Origin: a virus
Strand: one strand, 5' to 3'
DNA: 30,264 nt
Virus record (IMG/VR): IMGVR_UViG_3300044611_000404
Coordinates: 1 to 30,264 of that record
A model generated the notes under the pieces. That model saw only the letters and a program-made list of their open reading frames with translations. It was not told where the DNA came from and searched no databases. This document shows, one piece after another, positions 2,712-30,261 of this stretch. Position numbers and translations under genes: made by a program. Position 1 is the first letter of the stretch. Every line of letters starts with the position of its first letter.

Positions 2712-3212
2712 TTAGTTAGTAGCTTTAGTGACATTATAATGGGCAGTTGTAACCCTTAGATTATTAGGGTGATGTAATCCACCGCGACATATTGGTTGGC
2801 AATGGTCAACATGAAACATTGCGCGGCCATGTTGTTTATTCAGAATATCCCTAAAAGCATATACATCTTTTACCAATGCTTTCTCGTTATCTGATAGCAG
2901 GATTGCATTGCCTTTAATTATTGCACGACGAGCAGACTGAAAGCTGTCCATATAGGCGCGATTAGCTTTATTCCATTTACGTTTTCTGGCGCGAGCTAAC
3001 TCAGAACAATTCTTAGCCTTGTCTTTAGCCCTATATGCTGGGTCATTATGATAACGCCATTTAGCTCTGTCCCTAGCATCTTGAATAATTTTATTATAAT
3101 GTTCAACGGTTACCCACCATTCTGTAAAGCTAGTAAGATTTTTTGTTCTAGACAAAAACACCATACCATCTTTTCTAACGTCTCCTCTTTTAGGTGTCTT
3201 AGTTGCAATCAT
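2712..3212 (-). CDS. HNH endonuclease (homing-type)
   Basis: A 166-residue protein. The C-terminus carries a clear HNH signature: HVDHCQPICRGG (134-145), followed by LHHPNNLRVTT and a final Asn/Lys segment. The central part (residues 45-100) is very basic with many Arg/Lys, as in DNA-binding linkers. The N-terminus (RGDVRKDGMVF at 9-19, then WWV) is shared in pattern with the HNH protein at 29581-30261 (KGDVREDGKVF). HNH genes of this kind are typically free-standing homing endonucleases that nick or cut cognate DNA and spread with their flanks. This one sits between the large terminase gene (stop at 3234) and the IF2_N-like gene. An alternative role in packaging (HNH proteins next to terminases stimulate some HK97-type terminases) is possible but less likely given the homing-like N-terminus. 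Confidence 0.85.
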   Translation of the reverse strand: MIATKTPKRGDVRKDGMVFLSRTKNLTSFTEWWVTVEHYNKIIQDARDRAKWRYHNDPAYRAKDKAKNCSELARARKRKWNKANRAYMDSFQSARRAIIKGNAILLSDNEKALVKDVYAFRDILNKQHGRAMFHVDHCQPICRGGLHHPNNLRVTTAHYNVTKATN

Positions 3213-3233: not shown

Positions 3234-4847
3234 TTAGTAGCCGCCAGTCTTATTTTTGTCCACAGCGTATTTATTTTCTTTAATAAAACTGATATTTTCA
3301 ATTGCCGCGTATCGACATACATCCACACAATCTTTCCACGCTTCGTCGGGGCCGCCTTCGGCTGTGTATTCTTGGAACGCTTGGATAATGTTTTGACAAC
3401 GGTTGGATACATAAAGGTGTGGGCGATTAACGCCATCTATTGAAATTTTTTTATTATAAGCCATCTTGCTTTGGAGGGCTTGGATGCCGTCCTCAATATC
3501 AAGTCCGGGCGCAGGCACAAACGTCAAGCCAGCCATAGACAAGTCCTCGATGATAGAAGAAGCTCCGTCCTGCCCCTGATACTTGGCCGCACCTAAACGT
3601 GGGTCAATCAGCCGTTCAAAGATGTTTTCCTTACCATCAGACTCTAAGGTAGTGATTAGATTAACATAGTCCTTGATGCCATAGCCTAGCCCCTTAGACC
3701 CTTCGCCGCCAATCCATTTGCCGCCGTGCCACTTAGCCCAATCCCCTACAGCAACGTCAGGCCACTCCCGATAGATGTAATACGTCTCTGTCTCGTCTAC
3801 AGCTATCCAGCACATGAACCAATTCTTGCGGCCAGCAGGGTCTAGCACCATGTACCTAGTGACGTTTATCCTAGGAATTTTTTCGTGGGGTATGACATTT
3901 ACATCCGTACTAAAATTAGGGAACTGACAACTAAAGCTCTTGGTGGGAATACCATACGCACGGCACAGGATTTCTTCCTCTGGCCTATTAGCTAAGTCTT
4001 TGGCAATACGGTCATAGCCGCCAAAGGGATTGTCCTTGGTGTGGAAGTAGATGACGGCGGCATTACGATTCTTGGAGTGCTGGATAGTGCTTACCAACCG
4101 TCCTCCAAGTAGTTCTGCTGGTTTGCTTTCTATTGTCGTAGCCCCGCCAATGTAGTCGCGCACTACCTCCGTATATCCATCAATCGGCGTAAACGTCACA
4201 ATCATCTTGGCATTGCGGGTAGCCAAACGGAATCTAAGGGTGTTAAGTAGGTCTGGCCCAATCAAGTATTCGTCGCACCATGCCCCAATATTGACTACCT
4301 TAGCATCCCTGCAGCCCAACTCCGCACCTTCCAAGATGGTGTCGTTGTTTAGGTATTGGGCATACGTCTTGAAAATTATTTGCGACAGGCTATTAGGCAG
4401 AATCAAACTCCCTTTGCTAAAGCCGTTCTTTCTAGTGTAGCTAACATTCTCCTCAGCCCCCAGCATCTTCTTTCTATATTCTTCTGGCAGAGCATCATAG
4501 ATGGCACTTTGCTGTTGACGGATGGATACGTCGGCGTTTTGGCTGAAGCACATGATGACGCTGCCGTGGTTCTCAATCGCCGCCTGCACCACAGCCCTAG
4601 CCGCATAACTTGTTTTACCAGAACGATTACCGCCACTAATCAATATCTCTGTAAACTTGGCAAGCTGCTGGTCGGCCTGTTTCCAATGCGGCAGGACAAA
4701 GCCATACCGATAGCTGTCCCGCTCGCTGTTAGCAATGGACGAATGATATATCTCCCACAGCTCCAACAGTTTATCAGGCTCCATCTGCGCCATCTCATCA
4801 GGCGTCGGGGGACAAAGCACTGGGTGTGGTTTCCAACGTAGGCTCAT
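3234..4847 (-). CDS. terL: Terminase large subunit
   Basis: A 537-residue packaging motor with ATPase and nuclease domains. The Walker A motif GGNRSGKTS is at 72-80. A Walker B-like strand ending in Asp-Glu (VVNIGAWCDEYL) is at about 184-195. The coupling-motif-like segment VTFTPIDGY follows near 217-225. The C-terminal RNase H-fold nuclease shows the expected acidic residues: MVLDPAGRK (Asp336), LIDPRLG (Asp414) and DCVDVCRYA near 507. Length fits the family. The start overlaps the small-subunit stop by 4 nt (ATGA at 4844-4847), which indicates translational coupling of the two subunits. Confidence 0.95.
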   Translation of the reverse strand: MSLRWKPHPVLCPPTPDEMAQMEPDKLLELWEIYHSSIANSERDSYRYGFVLPHWKQADQQLAKFTEILISGGNRSGKTSYAARAVVQAAIENHGSVIMCFSQNADVSIRQQQSAIYDALPEEYRKKMLGAEENVSYTRKNGFSKGSLILPNSLSQIIFKTYAQYLNNDTILEGAELGCRDAKVVNIGAWCDEYLIGPDLLNTLRFRLATRNAKMIVTFTPIDGYTEVVRDYIGGATTIESKPAELLGGRLVSTIQHSKNRNAAVIYFHTKDNPFGGYDRIAKDLANRPEEEILCRAYGIPTKSFSCQFPNFSTDVNVIPHEKIPRINVTRYMVLDPAGRKNWFMCWIAVDETETYYIYREWPDVAVGDWAKWHGGKWIGGEGSKGLGYGIKDYVNLITTLESDGKENIFERLIDPRLGAAKYQGQDGASSIIEDLSMAGLTFVPAPGLDIEDGIQALQSKMAYNKKISIDGVNRPHLYVSNRCQNIIQAFQEYTAEGGPDEAWKDCVDVCRYAAIENISFIKENKYAVDKNKTGGY

Positions 4848-5834: not shown

Positions 5835-6114
5835 ATAGAAAAAGGCATACCTAGCTATAGGCAAATATCAAATCGCTTAGAATTGGCTGCAATCGGTGGC
5901 TAATAGCTTATGCAACTCTATAACATTAGGGGCGTGCGGGAGATAATGAGGGATGGGGGAAGGCATTGCCCTGACTGTTCGGCTGACCGTTGCCCCGCTC
6001 CGCTCCGGCTTGTCCGGCCGTTCCGGCCGTCTGCTTGCTCCCGGTAGTTTGAGTCTGGGGGTGGGGCTTTTCTCTCTCCCTGGCTTTGGGGGCCGCCGAA
6101 AAAATCTTCACTCT

Positions 6115-6143
6115 TTGTTAAAATAGTTATTGCAATCTGTAAT
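6115..6143 (+). promoter_or_regulatory. Sigma70-type promoter candidate for early operon
   Basis: TTGTTA at 6115-6120 (4 of 6) is separated by 17 nt from TGTAAT at 6138-6143 (5 of 6). The predicted start near 6150 gives a leader of about 58 nt that contains the hairpin at 6166-6186 and then the A-rich start region of the first early gene. Confidence 0.5.
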
Positions 6144-6165
6144 TCATGCCCCCATATTAGCTGCA

Positions 6166-6186
6166 TCGGAGGAAATTCTCCTCCGA
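6166..6186 (+). promoter_or_regulatory. Leader hairpin with buried GGAGG
   Basis: TCGGAGGA and TCCTCCGA form a perfect 8-bp stem around the loop AATTC. It ends 22 nt before the ATG at 6209 and is followed by an A-rich stretch, not by a T-run, so it is not a terminator. The GGAGG in the stem is a Shine-Dalgarno core but is paired and too far from the start. The hairpin more likely stabilises the 5' end of the early mRNA or binds a protein (inference). Confidence 0.45.
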
Positions 6187-6208: not shown

Positions 6209-6508
6209 ATGAAAACCAATATCAAAATCCAAAACGACAAGCTCCATGCCGAAATACTTACATTGCGTGAGCAGCGAAAGCAGTTTGCCTCAGAGTCCAT
6301 GCGGGCGCAATGGGCTTTGCAACAAGCTCACAAAGCTATTTTCGAGCTAGTCAAAAATATTGAGACGGTGCGTTATTTAGCTGACCATGACCTAAAAGCT
6401 TTACGGGGCTTGGGTTGCCTACCGTTTTCCGCAATCCCCGCCGAAGTGAGTCATGACAGCGCAGATTGGGATTCTATTATGGCCTTCCGCAAAGCAATCA
6501 TTAATTAA
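6209..6508 (+). CDS. Hypothetical protein, first early gene
   Basis: A 99-residue protein of unknown family. The N-terminal two thirds (residues 1-60) are predicted to be a helix with heptad-like hydrophobics, a probable coiled coil (LHAEILTLREQRKQFASE). The C-terminal part is mixed. The start is preceded by CAAATAAAAACAATCCG, an A-rich leader without Shine-Dalgarno. It is the first gene behind the rightward promoter, and its stop codon abuts a hammerhead ribozyme, so its mRNA is probably cut away from the rest of the operon. Confidence 0.7.
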   Translation: MKTNIKIQNDKLHAEILTLREQRKQFASESMRAQWALQQAHKAIFELVKNIETVRYLADHDLKALRGLGCLPFSAIPAEVSHDSADWDSIMAFRKAIIN

Positions 6509-6561
6509 GACGAAACGCCGCAAGGCGTCCATGGGTGATGCCCCATGCTGACGAGTCTCAA
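6505..6561 (+). ncRNA. Type II hammerhead ribozyme
   Basis: All conserved core elements are present in the order of a type II (stem II open) hammerhead. Stem II 5' strand is AGAC (6508-6511), followed by GAAA (6512-6515). Stem III is CGCC-GCAA-GGCG (6516-6527, GNRA loop). U and C17 are at 6528-6529. Stem I is CATGGG-TGATGC-CCCATG (6530-6547), followed by CTGACGA (6548-6554). The stem II 3' strand GTCT (6555-6558) is complementary to AGAC. Two extra A-T pairs follow past one mismatch (6505-6506 with 6560-6561). Predicted self-cleavage is between C6529 and C6530. The element fills the gap between the first gene and the next start (6583), overlapping the stop codon of the first gene through stem II. 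Its cut would leave a hairpin at each new RNA end. Activity is inferred from the motif, not shown. Confidence 0.88.
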
Positions 6562-6582
6562 CTAAATTCAACCAATAGAAAA

Positions 6583-6726
6583 ATGAATAAGCCAAAAAAG
6601 TTTTACCGTATTAACAATCGCAAAAAACCCTCAAAATGGATGCAGAATCAGAATGAATATGCCGCGAAAATGTTTGAGAAGATAGCTCAAATAGAGGCTC
6701 AACTAAAAGACAAGGCGCAACAGTAA
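6583..6726 (+). CDS. Small basic hypothetical protein
   Basis: A 47-residue Lys/Gln-rich protein (MNKPKKFYRINNRKKPSK...), with a basic N-terminus and a helical C-terminus (EYAAKMFEKIAQIEAQLKDK), possibly nucleic-acid-binding. An in-frame ATG at 6535 lies inside the ribozyme. The start at 6583, preceded by CCAATAGAAAA, is preferred because it lies after the ribozyme and begins the lysine-rich sequence. Unknown family. Confidence 0.55.
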   Translation: MNKPKKFYRINNRKKPSKWMQNQNEYAAKMFEKIAQIEAQLKDKAQQ

Positions 6727-6744
6727 ACCATTAAATAAATAAAA
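6723..6744 (+). repeat. Junction repeat copy 1 (AAATAAATAAA leader)
   Basis: TAAACCATTAAATAAATAAA at the stop of the 47-residue gene and just before the ATG at 6747 is nearly identical to the sequence at 6992-7011. It acts as the gene boundary and translation-start leader. Confidence 0.5.
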
Positions 6745-6746
6745 TC

Positions 6747-6995
6747 ATGACAACTCAGCATATTATTGCGAACAGACACGACATCATCGAGGAATCCCTG
6801 ACCCGTGGGTCGTGGGAACCCATTGGCGAAGAAACTGACGGCCTAAATATTCATGATGATGCGCTAGGCATGACACTCATATACCGCGCAGAGAATGACG
6901 GTGATGTGGCCGTGTACCGTTCAACAGATTACAAAATTCACGCGCTAGTGGCAGATGCTAACGGCCCACTTTACGTTTTAGTTCCCGCTCAGTAA
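6747..6995 (+). CDS. Hypothetical protein
   Basis: An 82-residue protein of unknown family with an acidic N-terminal half (EEETDGLNIHDDALG pattern) and a beta-rich C-terminus ending YVLVPAQ. The ATG follows TTAAATAAATAAAATC, one of a pair of near-identical junction sequences (see repeats). It is part of the early operon, 20 nt after the preceding stop. Confidence 0.65.
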   Translation: MTTQHIIANRHDIIEESLTRGSWEPIGEETDGLNIHDDALGMTLIYRAENDGDVAVYRSTDYKIHALVADANGPLYVLVPAQ

Positions 6996-7012
6996 ACCAT
7001 CAAATAAATAAA
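6992..7012 (+). repeat. Junction repeat copy 2 (AAATAAATAAA leader)
   Basis: TAAACCATCAAATAAATAAA differs from copy 1 by one base (C for T). It includes the stop codon of the 82-residue gene and ends just before the ATG at 7017. Confidence 0.5.
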
Positions 7013-7016
7013 TCAA

Positions 7017-7478
7017 ATGTCTATAAAACAAAGCAACAGAAAATTATTCGCCAAGCTGGAGAGCATGGGCTTTACTTATGATGAGGCATCAAGCCTTCGC
7101 CGTATCGAAATGACCTTGCAACGGTGGGCTGAGCGGGAGTGCGGGGACGGTTCCGATTGGGCTATTGAACGCGATGAAGTCACGGGGAAACCTTTCAACG
7201 TGTATCACGGCGAAGGTTCACGCAGCAAATACGCAATCCCTGACCGCGAAGCGGGGGCTTTGAAACGGGCAAAAGATATTGTTTCCGCTAGGAATGTCCG
7301 CATCAATGGCGACCATGACAGGGATGATGATTTGATGGCCTATCATCAAGGGGACTGCCGCGGTTGTATGCTTTACCTTATCCCTGCGGGGACTCTAAAT
7401 CCTGATTCTAATTACTCAAATGGCTTTCCTGTTTGCGCTGTTAGTGGAGGCTTTGGTGGATTCGTTGGGCGTGGTTAA
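7017..7478 (+). CDS. Conserved hypothetical phage protein
   Basis: A 153-residue protein. The N-terminus is helical (SIKQSNRKLFAKLESMGFTY; EASSLRRIEMTLQRWAERECG), and the middle includes NVYHGEGSRSKYAIPDREAGA, then a Gly/Asp-rich segment, with a Gly-rich end. The pattern of helices with RRIEMTLQRWAE..CG resembles a conserved early phage protein found in several podo- and siphoviruses, but no function is known to me. The ATG is preceded by AAATAAATAAATCAA. Confidence 0.7.
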   Translation: MSIKQSNRKLFAKLESMGFTYDEASSLRRIEMTLQRWAERECGDGSDWAIERDEVTGKPFNVYHGEGSRSKYAIPDREAGALKRAKDIVSARNVRINGDHDRDDDLMAYHQGDCRGCMLYLIPAGTLNPDSNYSNGFPVCAVSGGFGGFVGRG

Positions 7479-10895: not shown

Positions 10896-11360
10896 ATGAG
10901 TTTAGATTCTGGACAGTCAGTAAAACACAGATGGAGTTATGGAGACAGAAAGCACGCAGTTGATGCGCTTTTCTCTCCCGAAGATGCCGATATGTACCAA
11001 ATTAAATTTGGTCTTAGCTCTGGGTATCTTAGGTCAACTATACGCCCACAGTATTATTCCCATCACGCTATTGCAAAACGAATGGGTCTTATTTGGGATG
11101 GAGTGAAAGTGATAATTGACCATATTAATCGAAACAGATTTGATAACCGCCGTGAGAACCTTCGCGTTGTTAACAGGTCTGAAAATGCGTTGAATAGCTA
11201 TAGCCAAGACAACGCCAAGGGTTATTATTACAGCAAGGGCTATGACGGGAAAAATAAATGGGTTGCTTGCATTGAACGCAAAGGAAAGAAGAAAGTGAAG
11301 TATTGCTACACAGAATCAGAAGCGATTGCTGCAAGAAAGGAGATGCTTAACCATGAGTAA
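10896..11360 (+). CDS. HNH homing endonuclease with AP2-like domain
   Basis: A 154-residue protein. HNH motif IDHINRNRFDNRRENLRVV is at 74-92, followed by NRSENALNS. The C-terminal 50 residues (KGYYYSKGYDGKNKWVACIE at about 108-127, then AARKEM) match the AP2-type DNA-binding domain often joined to HNH in phage homing enzymes. It lies directly after a terminator, between the SSB-like and exonuclease genes. Its 3' end overlaps the exonuclease start by 8 nt (ATGAGTAA) and carries AAGGAG for it. Probably a selfish insertion that has been fitted into the operon. Confidence 0.9.
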   Translation: MSLDSGQSVKHRWSYGDRKHAVDALFSPEDADMYQIKFGLSSGYLRSTIRPQYYSHHAIAKRMGLIWDGVKVIIDHINRNRFDNRRENLRVVNRSENALNSYSQDNAKGYYYSKGYDGKNKWVACIERKGKKKVKYCYTESEAIAARKEMLNHE

Positions 11361-13446: not shown

Positions 13447-13521
13447 GCCTTTGTAGCTCAGTGGTAGAGCATCTGTTTTGTAAACAGGCGGTCGTAGGTT
13501 CAAATCCTACCAAAGGCTCCA
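13447..13521 (+). tRNA. tRNA-Thr (anticodon TGT), CCA encoded
   Basis: A complete cloverleaf of 75 nt. Acceptor GCCTTTG/CAAAGGC, D arm GCTC/GAGC, anticodon arm TCTGT-TTTGTAA-ACAGG with TGT, variable CGGTC, T arm GTAGG-TTCAAAT-CCTAC, discriminator T, then CCA at 13519-13521. It lies between the helicase and methyltransferase genes on the same strand and would read ACA threonine codons. It has no sign of an att duplication. Confidence 0.97.
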
Positions 13522-13539: not shown

Positions 13540-14394
13540 ATGACATGGATACTACCGAAATCACTCATCTCAGCCTTTGCTCTGGATACGGAGGTCTTGA
13601 CCTCGGAATCAAAGGAGTCTTTGGCGAAAATGTGCGGACAGTTGCTTATGCGGAAATCGAAGCCTTCGCAATCGAGTGCTTACTTGCGCGAATGGAAGGC
13701 GGGCAACTTGATGCGGCTCCAATCTGGCCTAATATCAAAAGTTTCCCTTGGGGAGCGTTTTCAGACCGCGTGGATATCCTTTCTGGCGGCTACCCCTGCC
13801 AGCCATTTAGCGCAGCCGGGAAGCGACTTGGCACAGAAGACCCAAGACACTTGTGGCCTTTCATCGCAAACGGAATTAGGATTATGCGACCCAAGCTCTG
13901 TTTCTTTGAGAACGTCGAAGGACACATCTCTCTCGGACTTAGAGAAGTCGTTGAAGAACTGGGAAGCATCGGTTATAAAACGACGTGGGGAATATTCTCA
14001 GCGCGTGAAGTTGGCGCACCACACCAACGGAAGCGGGTCTTCATCTTGGCCTACTTGCGCGGCGCGGGATTACAGAGATACTGGGGACTTGAGCAAATCG
14101 GATTGGAGAAAGGACGGACAGTTGAGGTCGGATACGTTGGCTCGCAAAGTGGATTTGGAATACAGACCGTTGCAAACAAAGAATGGCCTAGTCGCCTTCG
14201 CGAACCCCAGCACGCATGGGAACCGCCCCGCCAAGTCATTCCCAACGCTCAACCCTCGGTGGGTAGAGACTTTGATGGGACTGCCAGTGGGATGGACTAT
14301 GCCGAGCTGTGCATCTCCAATGACAATCGAGCCGACGAACTCAGACTCCTTGGAAATGGGGTTGTTCCAGCTACCGCAACTAAAGCTTTCTTGA
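13540..14394 (+). CDS. Overlapping-frame protein inside the cytosine methyltransferase gene
   Basis: A 284-residue frame open across nearly the whole methyltransferase gene, in a different reading frame. It has protein-like features I recognise from phage proteins that accompany or overlap C5 methyltransferases: SSAYLREWKAGNLMRLQSG (45-63), LRTSKDTS (123-130), RGEYSQRVKLA (149-159), SSWPTCAARDYRDTG (168-182) and LNPRWVETLMGLPVGWT (237-253). A 284-codon random frame at about 47% G+C would be improbable. Its ATG at 13540 carries the phage's typical AATAAACAAATAAA leader, so it is translated first if that leader works. Function unknown; the family recognition is from memory and not verified. Confidence 0.75.
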   Translation: MTWILPKSLISAFALDTEVLTSESKESLAKMCGQLLMRKSKPSQSSAYLREWKAGNLMRLQSGLISKVSLGERFQTAWISFLAATPASHLAQPGSDLAQKTQDTCGLSSQTELGLCDPSSVSLRTSKDTSLSDLEKSLKNWEASVIKRRGEYSQRVKLAHHTNGSGSSSWPTCAARDYRDTGDLSKSDWRKDGQLRSDTLARKVDLEYRPLQTKNGLVAFANPSTHGNRPAKSFPTLNPRWVETLMGLPVGWTMPSCASPMTIEPTNSDSLEMGLFQLPQLKLS

Positions 14395-14420
14395 CATTGC
14401 TTGAGGATTTAATCAAATAA
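13545..14420 (+). CDS. C5 cytosine DNA methyltransferase (Dcm family)
   Basis: A 291-residue enzyme that transfers a methyl group from S-adenosylmethionine to C5 of cytosine in a target sequence that cannot be told from the protein. Motif I LSLCSGYGGLDLG (9-21), motif IV GGYPCQPFS (81-89, catalytic Cys85), motif VI FFENVEG (120-126), motif VIII GAPHQRKRVF (157-166) and motif X LGNGVVPATA (269-278) are all present. The target-recognition region is about 165-260 and is short. It probably protects phage DNA from host restriction, as no cognate restriction gene is next to it. The gene shares nearly its whole length with another open frame (13540-14394). The start ATG lies 5 nt after the first ATG of that frame. 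Confidence 0.92.
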   Translation: MDTTEITHLSLCSGYGGLDLGIKGVFGENVRTVAYAEIEAFAIECLLARMEGGQLDAAPIWPNIKSFPWGAFSDRVDILSGGYPCQPFSAAGKRLGTEDPRHLWPFIANGIRIMRPKLCFFENVEGHISLGLREVVEELGSIGYKTTWGIFSAREVGAPHQRKRVFILAYLRGAGLQRYWGLEQIGLEKGRTVEVGYVGSQSGFGIQTVANKEWPSRLREPQHAWEPPRQVIPNAQPSVGRDFDGTASGMDYAELCISNDNRADELRLLGNGVVPATATKAFLTLLEDLIK

Positions 14421-16314: not shown

Positions 16315-16848
16315 ATGATAACAACAGAGTCATGGTTTATTCAACCATATTACAGCGTAACTTATAACGATGGAACACTCACAATCCGTTCTTCGTCTAA
16401 ACATAAAAAAGGCAACGAACTTGCACAAAACAACAACGATGGATATTTGCGCTGCAAAATAAATAATATATCAACTAAGATACATCAAATTATAACCAAT
16501 CATTTTTTGGGGACTAGACCCGCAGGATTGACCGTTAATCATAAAGATGGAAATAAACTTAATAACCGTATTGAGAACTTAGAATATGTATCTATTAGAG
16601 AGAACACTCTACACTCTATCCGCACGGGTTTACACGTTTGTTGCGACCCAACTAGAATGCCGGGATATAAAGACGGGAGAAGCAGGGACAGGGTTGCATA
16701 CAGAAAGGCGTATAGGATAGCAAACGCAGATAAAATATCTGCTTACATGAAAGCGAGATACGCAAAGAATCCAGCTAAATTTATAGCTTATCAGAAAGCT
16801 CATGCCCTTGCCCAGAAAAACAAAACAACCGTTACCACAAATGAATAA
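16315..16848 (+). CDS. HNH homing endonuclease
   Basis: A 177-residue protein. HNH box TVNHKDGNKLNNRIENLEYV (73-92) and the following SIRENTLHSIRTG are typical of phage homing HNH enzymes. The N-terminal 60 residues have the strand pattern of a NUMOD4-like module (weak). The C-terminal third is basic and repetitive (YRKAYRIANADKISAYMK), probably DNA-binding. It ends in an 8-nt overlap (ATGAATAA) with the 3'-5' exonuclease gene. Confidence 0.88.
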   Translation: MITTESWFIQPYYSVTYNDGTLTIRSSSKHKKGNELAQNNNDGYLRCKINNISTKIHQIITNHFLGTRPAGLTVNHKDGNKLNNRIENLEYVSIRENTLHSIRTGLHVCCDPTRMPGYKDGRSRDRVAYRKAYRIANADKISAYMKARYAKNPAKFIAYQKAHALAQKNKTTVTTNE

Positions 16849-29580: not shown

Positions 29581-30261
29581 TTAAAATGAACTAGCTTTAG
29601 CTAAATTTTCTGCTGCAAATAGTGGTTGAAGGTTAGAATAATGAAAACAAGTTGATGCTTGGTTTGAATTAGACAAGTCAAAAGATGAGCATGGTTGAAT
29701 ATGGTCAATATGCCAAACCTGACCATGATTTTCTAACGTCATGCCTTGGCGAAATTTAGAAACAAAATGCTGACGCAGTTGTTCTCTATTGCATCCCGTT
29801 AATTCAAAAGCATTTTTGGTCTTTTCAACTCCTTGGCATTTAAAAGCACGACTAAGACGACTACGCAATCTGTGGGTTAAACGAAAAAGGGAATCAACTG
29901 CAAGTCGATTGCGTTGATATATAGTATGTTTTGCAGAAATCTTCTTCCAATTTAATTTTCGATAGGCTGCTACTTGTTTTAGAGTTGCTGTTCGATTTAT
30001 TGCATAATGCTCTTTTCTTTTTATTAGAGCAGCATCTCGATTATCTTGGTAATATTTTTTAATTTTAACTGATATTCTTTCGTAATTATTAACACGATAT
30101 TCATTCTTTTTTGCCAGACAATTTTTTTGATTTAGATTAAAGTTTTCTTTATTAACCCAATACTCTTTACCAGTAGATTGATATGCCCAAAATACTTTTC
30201 CGTCCTCACGAACATCACCTTTTTTATAACGGACGTTGTTTAATGCTTGTTCTGTGGTCAT
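29581..30261 (-). CDS. HNH endonuclease
   Basis: A 226-residue protein. HNH-type nuclease at the C-terminus: VWHIDHIQPCSSFDLSN (182-198), then FHYSNLQPLFAAENLAKA (206-223). A long basic helical linker (45-150, many KK and RR) precedes it. The N-terminus shows KKGDVREDGKVFWAY (13-27) and EYWV, shared in pattern with the HNH protein at 2712-3212. Start ATG at 30261 is 3 nt from the window edge; an earlier in-frame start beyond the edge cannot be excluded. It is A/T-richer than neighbouring virion genes, in line with recent insertion. Confidence 0.85.
   Translation of the reverse strand: MTTEQALNNVRYKKGDVREDGKVFWAYQSTGKEYWVNKENFNLNQKNCLAKKNEYRVNNYERISVKIKKYYQDNRDAALIKRKEHYAINRTATLKQVAAYRKLNWKKISAKHTIYQRNRLAVDSLFRLTHRLRSRLSRAFKCQGVEKTKNAFELTGCNREQLRQHFVSKFRQGMTLENHGQVWHIDHIQPCSSFDLSNSNQASTCFHYSNLQPLFAAENLAKASSF

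Follow-up and report, generated by a model that had tools for sequence, protein, structure and literature searches.

What might a self-cleaving RNA do in the early operon of a phage? The question is raised by a contig of 30,264 nucleotides from an uncultured bacterial virus (IMG/VR record IMGVR_UViG_3300044611_000404; its whole length is referred to here as the window), in which an earlier note, made from the sequence alone, recognized a type II hammerhead ribozyme between the first early open reading frame and the remaining operon. Ribozymes of this type have been known in phages since 2011, in arrays between small, non-conserved genes (PMC3088659; reviewed in PMC6155905). A review describes their biological roles as unsettled, and the small, non-conserved ORFs that it notes beside them (PMC6155905) fit the setting in the window. 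As detailed below, the ribozyme in the window is real, well supported and of a kind already known in phages. It is probably functional, so that the early polycistronic mRNA would cut itself between C6529 and C6530 during or soon after transcription.

Direct reading of the plus strand finds a complete hammerhead core whose elements follow one another in type II order (Table 1). The invariant CUGANGA and GAA segments, A15.1-U16.1 and an H17 residue at the cleavage site are all present. Stems I and III are closed by loops and stem II is open, as in the type II permutation, and the 15 core bases left unpaired match the hammerhead set exactly. The minimum free energy (MFE) fold of positions 6500-6566 is exactly the hammerhead structure (-18.1 kcal/mol); when a 121-nt context is folded, the structure becomes less dominant (MFE frequency 0.01), the MFE fold still containing the hammerhead. 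The cleavage position proposed in the earlier note agrees with the one given by the aligned hammerhead consensus.

Table 1. Coordinates of the early operon start and of the hammerhead ribozyme in the window.
Feature	Position	Strand	Basis and remarks
Putative promoter of the early operon (TTGCAA 6130-6135, 17 nt, CATATT 6153-6158)	6130-6158	+	Block conserved in five related phages
8-bp hairpin (UCGGAGGA/UCCUCCGA)	6166-6186	+	Direct reading; should coincide with the primary 5′ end to within a few bases
First early ORF (ORF 1), 99 aa	6209-6508	+	No relatives found
Stop codon UAA of ORF 1	6506-6508	+	A6507: conserved base preceding stem II; A6508: first base of stem II
Type II hammerhead ribozyme	6507-6562	+	Full match to covariance model
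Stem II, 5′ strand AGAC	6508-6511	+	Pairs with GUCU 6555-6558
Core GAA (G12 A13 A14)	6512-6514	+	Direct reading
Stem III hairpin: ACGCC (6515-6519), loop GCAA (6520-6523), GGCGU (6524-6528)	6515-6528	+	Direct reading and fold; compensated changes in L121
Predicted cleavage site, after C17 (C6529)	6529-6530	+	Position in aligned hammerhead consensus
Stem I hairpin: CAUGGG (6530-6535), loop UGAUGC (6536-6541), CCCAUG (6542-6547)	6530-6547	+	Direct reading and fold; U6536 is the first loop base
Core CUGACGA (C3-A9)	6548-6554	+	Direct reading
Stem II, 3′ strand GUCU	6555-6558	+	Direct reading and fold
A/C-rich leader of downstream mRNA, no Shine-Dalgarno	6559-6583	+	Direct reading; similar leader in L121
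Downstream ORF 2, 47 aa from AUG 6584	6584-6726	+	Listed from GTG 6535 as 63 aa

A descriptor scan for type II hammerheads yielded one match in the window. In 600 dinucleotide shuffles of the window no match as good was obtained, and weaker ones arose at a rate of 0.028 per window. A covariance model (R1), trained on 38 type II hammerheads taken from other viruses and genomes, the window and its relative L121 being left out, scored the motif at 58.9 bits (E = 7.8e-14, a rough value because the calibration was short; the bit score is unaffected). The next match of this model in the window had an E-value of 4.9, and neither the descriptor scan nor R1 found a second hammerhead within the 30 kb. 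The Rfam model RF02276 (Hammerhead_II), applied to a 131-nt stretch, gave 26.6 bits (E = 7.6e-4), significant at that search size but below its gathering cut-off of 37, and the site is absent from the list returned by a whole-window Rfam search. The refuting outcome named in the earlier note, lack of a significant covariance-model score, did not occur, although the score with RF02276 falls short of the official Rfam cut-off; the identification as a type II hammerhead is supported.

As the earlier note stated, the ribozyme separates the first early ORF from the genes that follow it in the operon. A consensus promoter scan did not pick up the TTGCAA-17-CATATT block, and the promoter is placed there because of conservation: the sequences of the five related phages diverge right after this block, whose counterpart in L121 is TTGACT-17-CATATT. 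Judging from the -10 element, the early transcript would start near 6164-6166. About 100 nt ahead of the operon (6060-6158) are strongly conserved among relatives with differing downstream genes. An A/C-rich leader lacking a Shine-Dalgarno sequence precedes AUG 6209. The frame that begins there and ends in stem II is as the earlier note described it; searches of viral contigs, PHROGs and Pfam found no relatives of it, and it is taken as coding because of its position. Further downstream, short intergenic A-rich leaders (TAAACCATYAAATAAATAAA..ATG; 6714-6754 and 6990-7020), likewise without Shine-Dalgarno sequence, are kept between relatives while the intervening genes change, hinting at gene-cassette exchange and at a host that initiates without Shine-Dalgarno sequences.

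Hammerhead cleavage leaves a 2′,3′-cyclic phosphate and a 5′-OH end. If the window RNA is cut after C6529, the upstream piece would be a monocistronic mRNA for gene 1 with the stop codon intact, and its 3′ end would be formed by the stem III hairpin, bearing a 2′,3′-cyclic phosphate. In the downstream piece, the stem I hairpin would stand at the very 5′ end, its first base bearing the 5′-OH, ahead of the leader without Shine-Dalgarno sequence and AUG 6584; this layout (hairpin, A/C-rich leader, AUG) would reproduce the one with which the primary operon transcript appears to begin. The hairpins at both new ends, already pointed out in the earlier note, should slow exonucleases and 5′-end-dependent decay. 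The most likely use of such a device would be mRNA processing, whereby gene 1 would be uncoupled from the rest and the operon split into units with hairpin-capped ends.

This proposal has precedents. Perreault et al. 2011 suggested a processing of phage transcripts into mRNAs of operon or gene length, and prophage-derived arrays self-cleave in vitro and in E. coli (PMC3088659). The bacterial and phage type II hammerheads (RF02276; PMC3088659) have the same order of elements as the window (stem II, GAAA, stem III, UC, stem I, CUGANGA, stem II) and resemble it in phage setting, in their place between small genes and in the proposed role in mRNA processing. The window differs from RF02276 in its 4-bp stem II, its loop I of UNANG type, the absence of the common pseudoknot and a score below the cut-off. 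As in the prophage arrays of Agrobacterium, Azorhizobium and Clostridium scindens (PMC3088659), the ribozyme occupies a gene junction within one transcript; unlike them, the window has a single ribozyme in 30 kb and no array.

Using the large terminase gene (3234-4847, minus strand) as query, 80 related loci were retrieved. By this gene the nearest annotated isolate record is Phage C75C1, only 43% identical; the terminase of L121 is 98% identical to that of the window. In L121, too, the ribozyme follows the conserved promoter block, at the position that it has in the window. Between L121 and the window, the ribozyme forms a 57-nt island, 91% identical, set between unrelated genes: the upstream ORF of L121 (108 aa) bears no relation to ORF 1, and a different short ORF lies downstream. 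Core bases are identical in the two, and stem III is fully paired in both, with 5 bp in the window (ACGCC/GGCGU) and 6 bp in L121 (ACACGC/GCGUGU). The UAA codon of the upstream ORF touches stem II in both, with a one-base overlap in the window and abutting in L121. When the exact stem I and loop of the window were sought elsewhere in viral contigs, the contig of L121 was the sole match.

Four other close relatives covering the operon start (L129, L133, L135 and L136) have the promoter and no hammerhead, so that the ribozyme is present in two of the six close genomes covering the site. Hence, the hammerhead is conserved where present, but dispensable. More distant cousins (L138, L140, L143 and L169; terminases about 73-76% identical) have type II hammerheads on the same strand, placed at different gene junctions. 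In at least L140, L143 and L169, loop I is complementary to the tail (UUGGCA/UGCCAA in L140, by eye). An Rfam search at the gathering cut-off returned nothing in ten relatives, L121 included. Weak covariance-model matches of 13-17 bits in relatives (L151 and others) were not counted; those that could be placed fall inside the terminase match. A GC-rich inverted repeat (AAGCCCGCTCCC..GGGGCGGGCTTT), possibly a terminator, occupies a gene junction common to relatives (L121:120-200; near 3137 in L135).

The patchy distribution, together with the varied junctions occupied in the cousins, is what one would expect if the hammerhead were a decayed or neutral passenger, brought in with a gene cassette and of little effect on the phage whether it cuts or not. 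Against this, all core bases are intact in the window and in L121 despite the compensated change in stem III and the exchange of the flanking genes, a combination that calls for selection on the fold. We therefore regard the passenger explanation as unlikely. Preservation of the ribozyme as a conserved island while genes on either side were exchanged offers a lead on the role of phage hammerheads.

The motif was also set against the wider type II family. Pattern scans, both of which fix two stem III sequences, collected at least 119 viral loci, 96 loci in prokaryotic genomes and at least 120 further viral loci. Among the matches listed, which were chosen by core and stem III only, stem I reaches 4 bp or more in 123/133 sites of the first viral set, 78/102 of the genome set and 120/126 of the second viral set, the chance level being about 2%. 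In the family alignment, whose rows were picked by a descriptor demanding the stems, 99.8% of cells are paired and 12 of the 15 pairs have changed on both sides. Two classes are prominent among the type II matches listed. In the pseudoknot class, a stem II of 2-3 bp is combined with pairing between loop I and the 3′ tail; among the matches listed, 143 of 202 sites with a three-bp stem II have loop I/tail complementarity of at least 4 bp, as compared to 40 with shuffled tails. In class A (148 sites among the matches listed), stem II has 4 bp, stem I has 6 bp, loop I measures 5-6 nt and is mostly UNANG, and the pseudoknot is rare (4-bp complementarity in 27/148 of these sites versus 11 with shuffled tails).

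The window hammerhead belongs to class A and is without the usual pseudoknot. It shares with other members (e.g., L003, L014 and L069) a 4-bp stem II preceded by A, a 6-bp stem I, a U as first loop base and the lack of a downstream pseudoknot; it differs, as does L121, in a loop of 6 nt, UNAUGC, which can also be read as UNAUG plus a bulged C, most class A loops having 5 nt. Comparison of two listings indicates that the Rfam gathering cut-off reports 2 of 15 class A sites, from 13 loci, and misses the other 13. Because this cut-off mostly misses them, ribozymes of the pseudoknot-less subgroup are under-annotated.

The loop I/tail pseudoknot, reported for a majority of type II motifs (PMC3088659), is not a defining feature. 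For the window such pairing amounts at most to UGA/UCA, 3 bp with one base in stem II; it is lost in L121 and was rejected. Cleavage by the window ribozyme may be modest in rate, since stem II is just 4 bp long with an outer A-U pair and the usual pseudoknot is absent. The earlier note had suggested a different tertiary contact, between UGAU of loop I and AUCA at 6497-6500. The ATCA sequence is there, but L121 has not conserved the contact, its loop being UAAU with no ATTA shortly upstream, and the proposal had to be abandoned. Instead, across the 148 class A relatives the first loop base co-varies with the base 5′ of stem II: among the matches listed, the combination (base 5′ of stem II/first loop base) is A/U in 136 sites, U/A in 8, A/G in 3 and G/G in 1. 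As 7 of the 8 U/A cases come from one subclass with a different loop, a direct base pair is suggested, unproven, and the swap was not taken as proof of an A6507-U6536 pair. These sequence comparisons nonetheless make A6507-U6536 a likely contact in the window, better supported than the one with AUCA.

The arrangement of the stop codon is a general one. Among the matches listed, the distance between an upstream stop and the edge of stem II falls in the range -2 to +3 nt in 104/148, 56/102 and 110/194 sites of three collections, together 270/444 (61%). The count covers sites with an upstream ORF of at least 60 codons ending nearby and uses simple ORF rules, related contigs being partly thinned. 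In both viral sets stem II most often begins with the third base of the stop codon, as it does in the window; in the genome set, exact abutment is commonest. This measurable position rule is also seen in cultivated Streptomyces phages: in phage Janus (L413), the stop codon of gp75, annotated by others, ends at L413:1198 and stem II starts at 1199. The term "stop codon" is absent from the main text of PMC3088659 and PMC10085705; the rule may be reported elsewhere. Beyond the single locus, this general docking of stop codons and the pseudoknot-less subgroup are the most interesting part of the analysis.

Because stop codon and stem II overlap, the ribozyme cannot be folded at the moment when a ribosome terminates there. 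The ribozyme might thus be gated by translation: a ribosome finishing gene 1 would cover the stop codon, stem II and GAAA, delaying cleavage under good translation and releasing it otherwise, so that cleavage would report on gene 1 translation. The sharing of A6508 and of the conserved contact base A6507 by the UAA codon, the high docking frequency and the annotated stops of Janus abutting stem II are all consistent with this scheme. However, in a placement test limited to sites with free room of at least 20 nt, 20 nt being reserved for the start, the start-codon side was also docked in excess (50 sites within 4 nt of that limit), besides the stop side (47 docked sites observed, 14 expected). 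Genome compaction, which predicts docking on both sides, is therefore sufficient to explain the pattern, and stop-codon docking was rejected as proof of gating. Moreover, the conserved A is present at sites without a docked stop (33/38, 26/39 and 64/74; together 123/151 among the matches listed), from which it follows that the ribozyme needs this base anyway and the stop codon borrows it. Nor is there any sign of regulated output. Gating of the window ribozyme by gene 1 translation thus appears improbable. Equally doubtful is the general form of the idea, that type II phage hammerheads are built onto stop codons, with the loop I-contacting base 5′ of stem II serving as second or third stop base and the competition between termination and folding timing cleavage by translation of the upstream gene.

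Finally, the notion that the site holds no ribozyme and that the two strong adjacent hairpins, also seen by a terminator scan on the opposite strand, act as attenuator, terminator or processing site can be virtually dismissed, given that the coding strand has no U tract and that the unpaired bases and the R1 E-value are those of a hammerhead.

Processing by a functional hammerhead thus remains the favoured reading for the window. Elsewhere, many viral contigs have homologous arrays lying between small genes. Four to eight type II hammerheads can lie within a few kb of a single viral contig (eight in L075, six in L112, five each in L004 and L413, four in L018), the five of Janus being contained in 2.4 kb. 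A contig of an Archaeoglobales MAG (L209, QMZE01000031.1) has four type II pattern matches, all on the minus strand (25-83, 994-1052, 1993-2051 and 4170-4228). In the window itself, four ORFs resemble HNH endonucleases by eye (2712-3212 and 29581-30261 on the minus strand; 10896-11360 and 16315-16848 on the plus strand), and a single tRNA-Thr gene (anticodon TGT; 13447-13521, plus strand) immediately precedes a gene for a C-5 cytosine DNA methylase (13545-14420).
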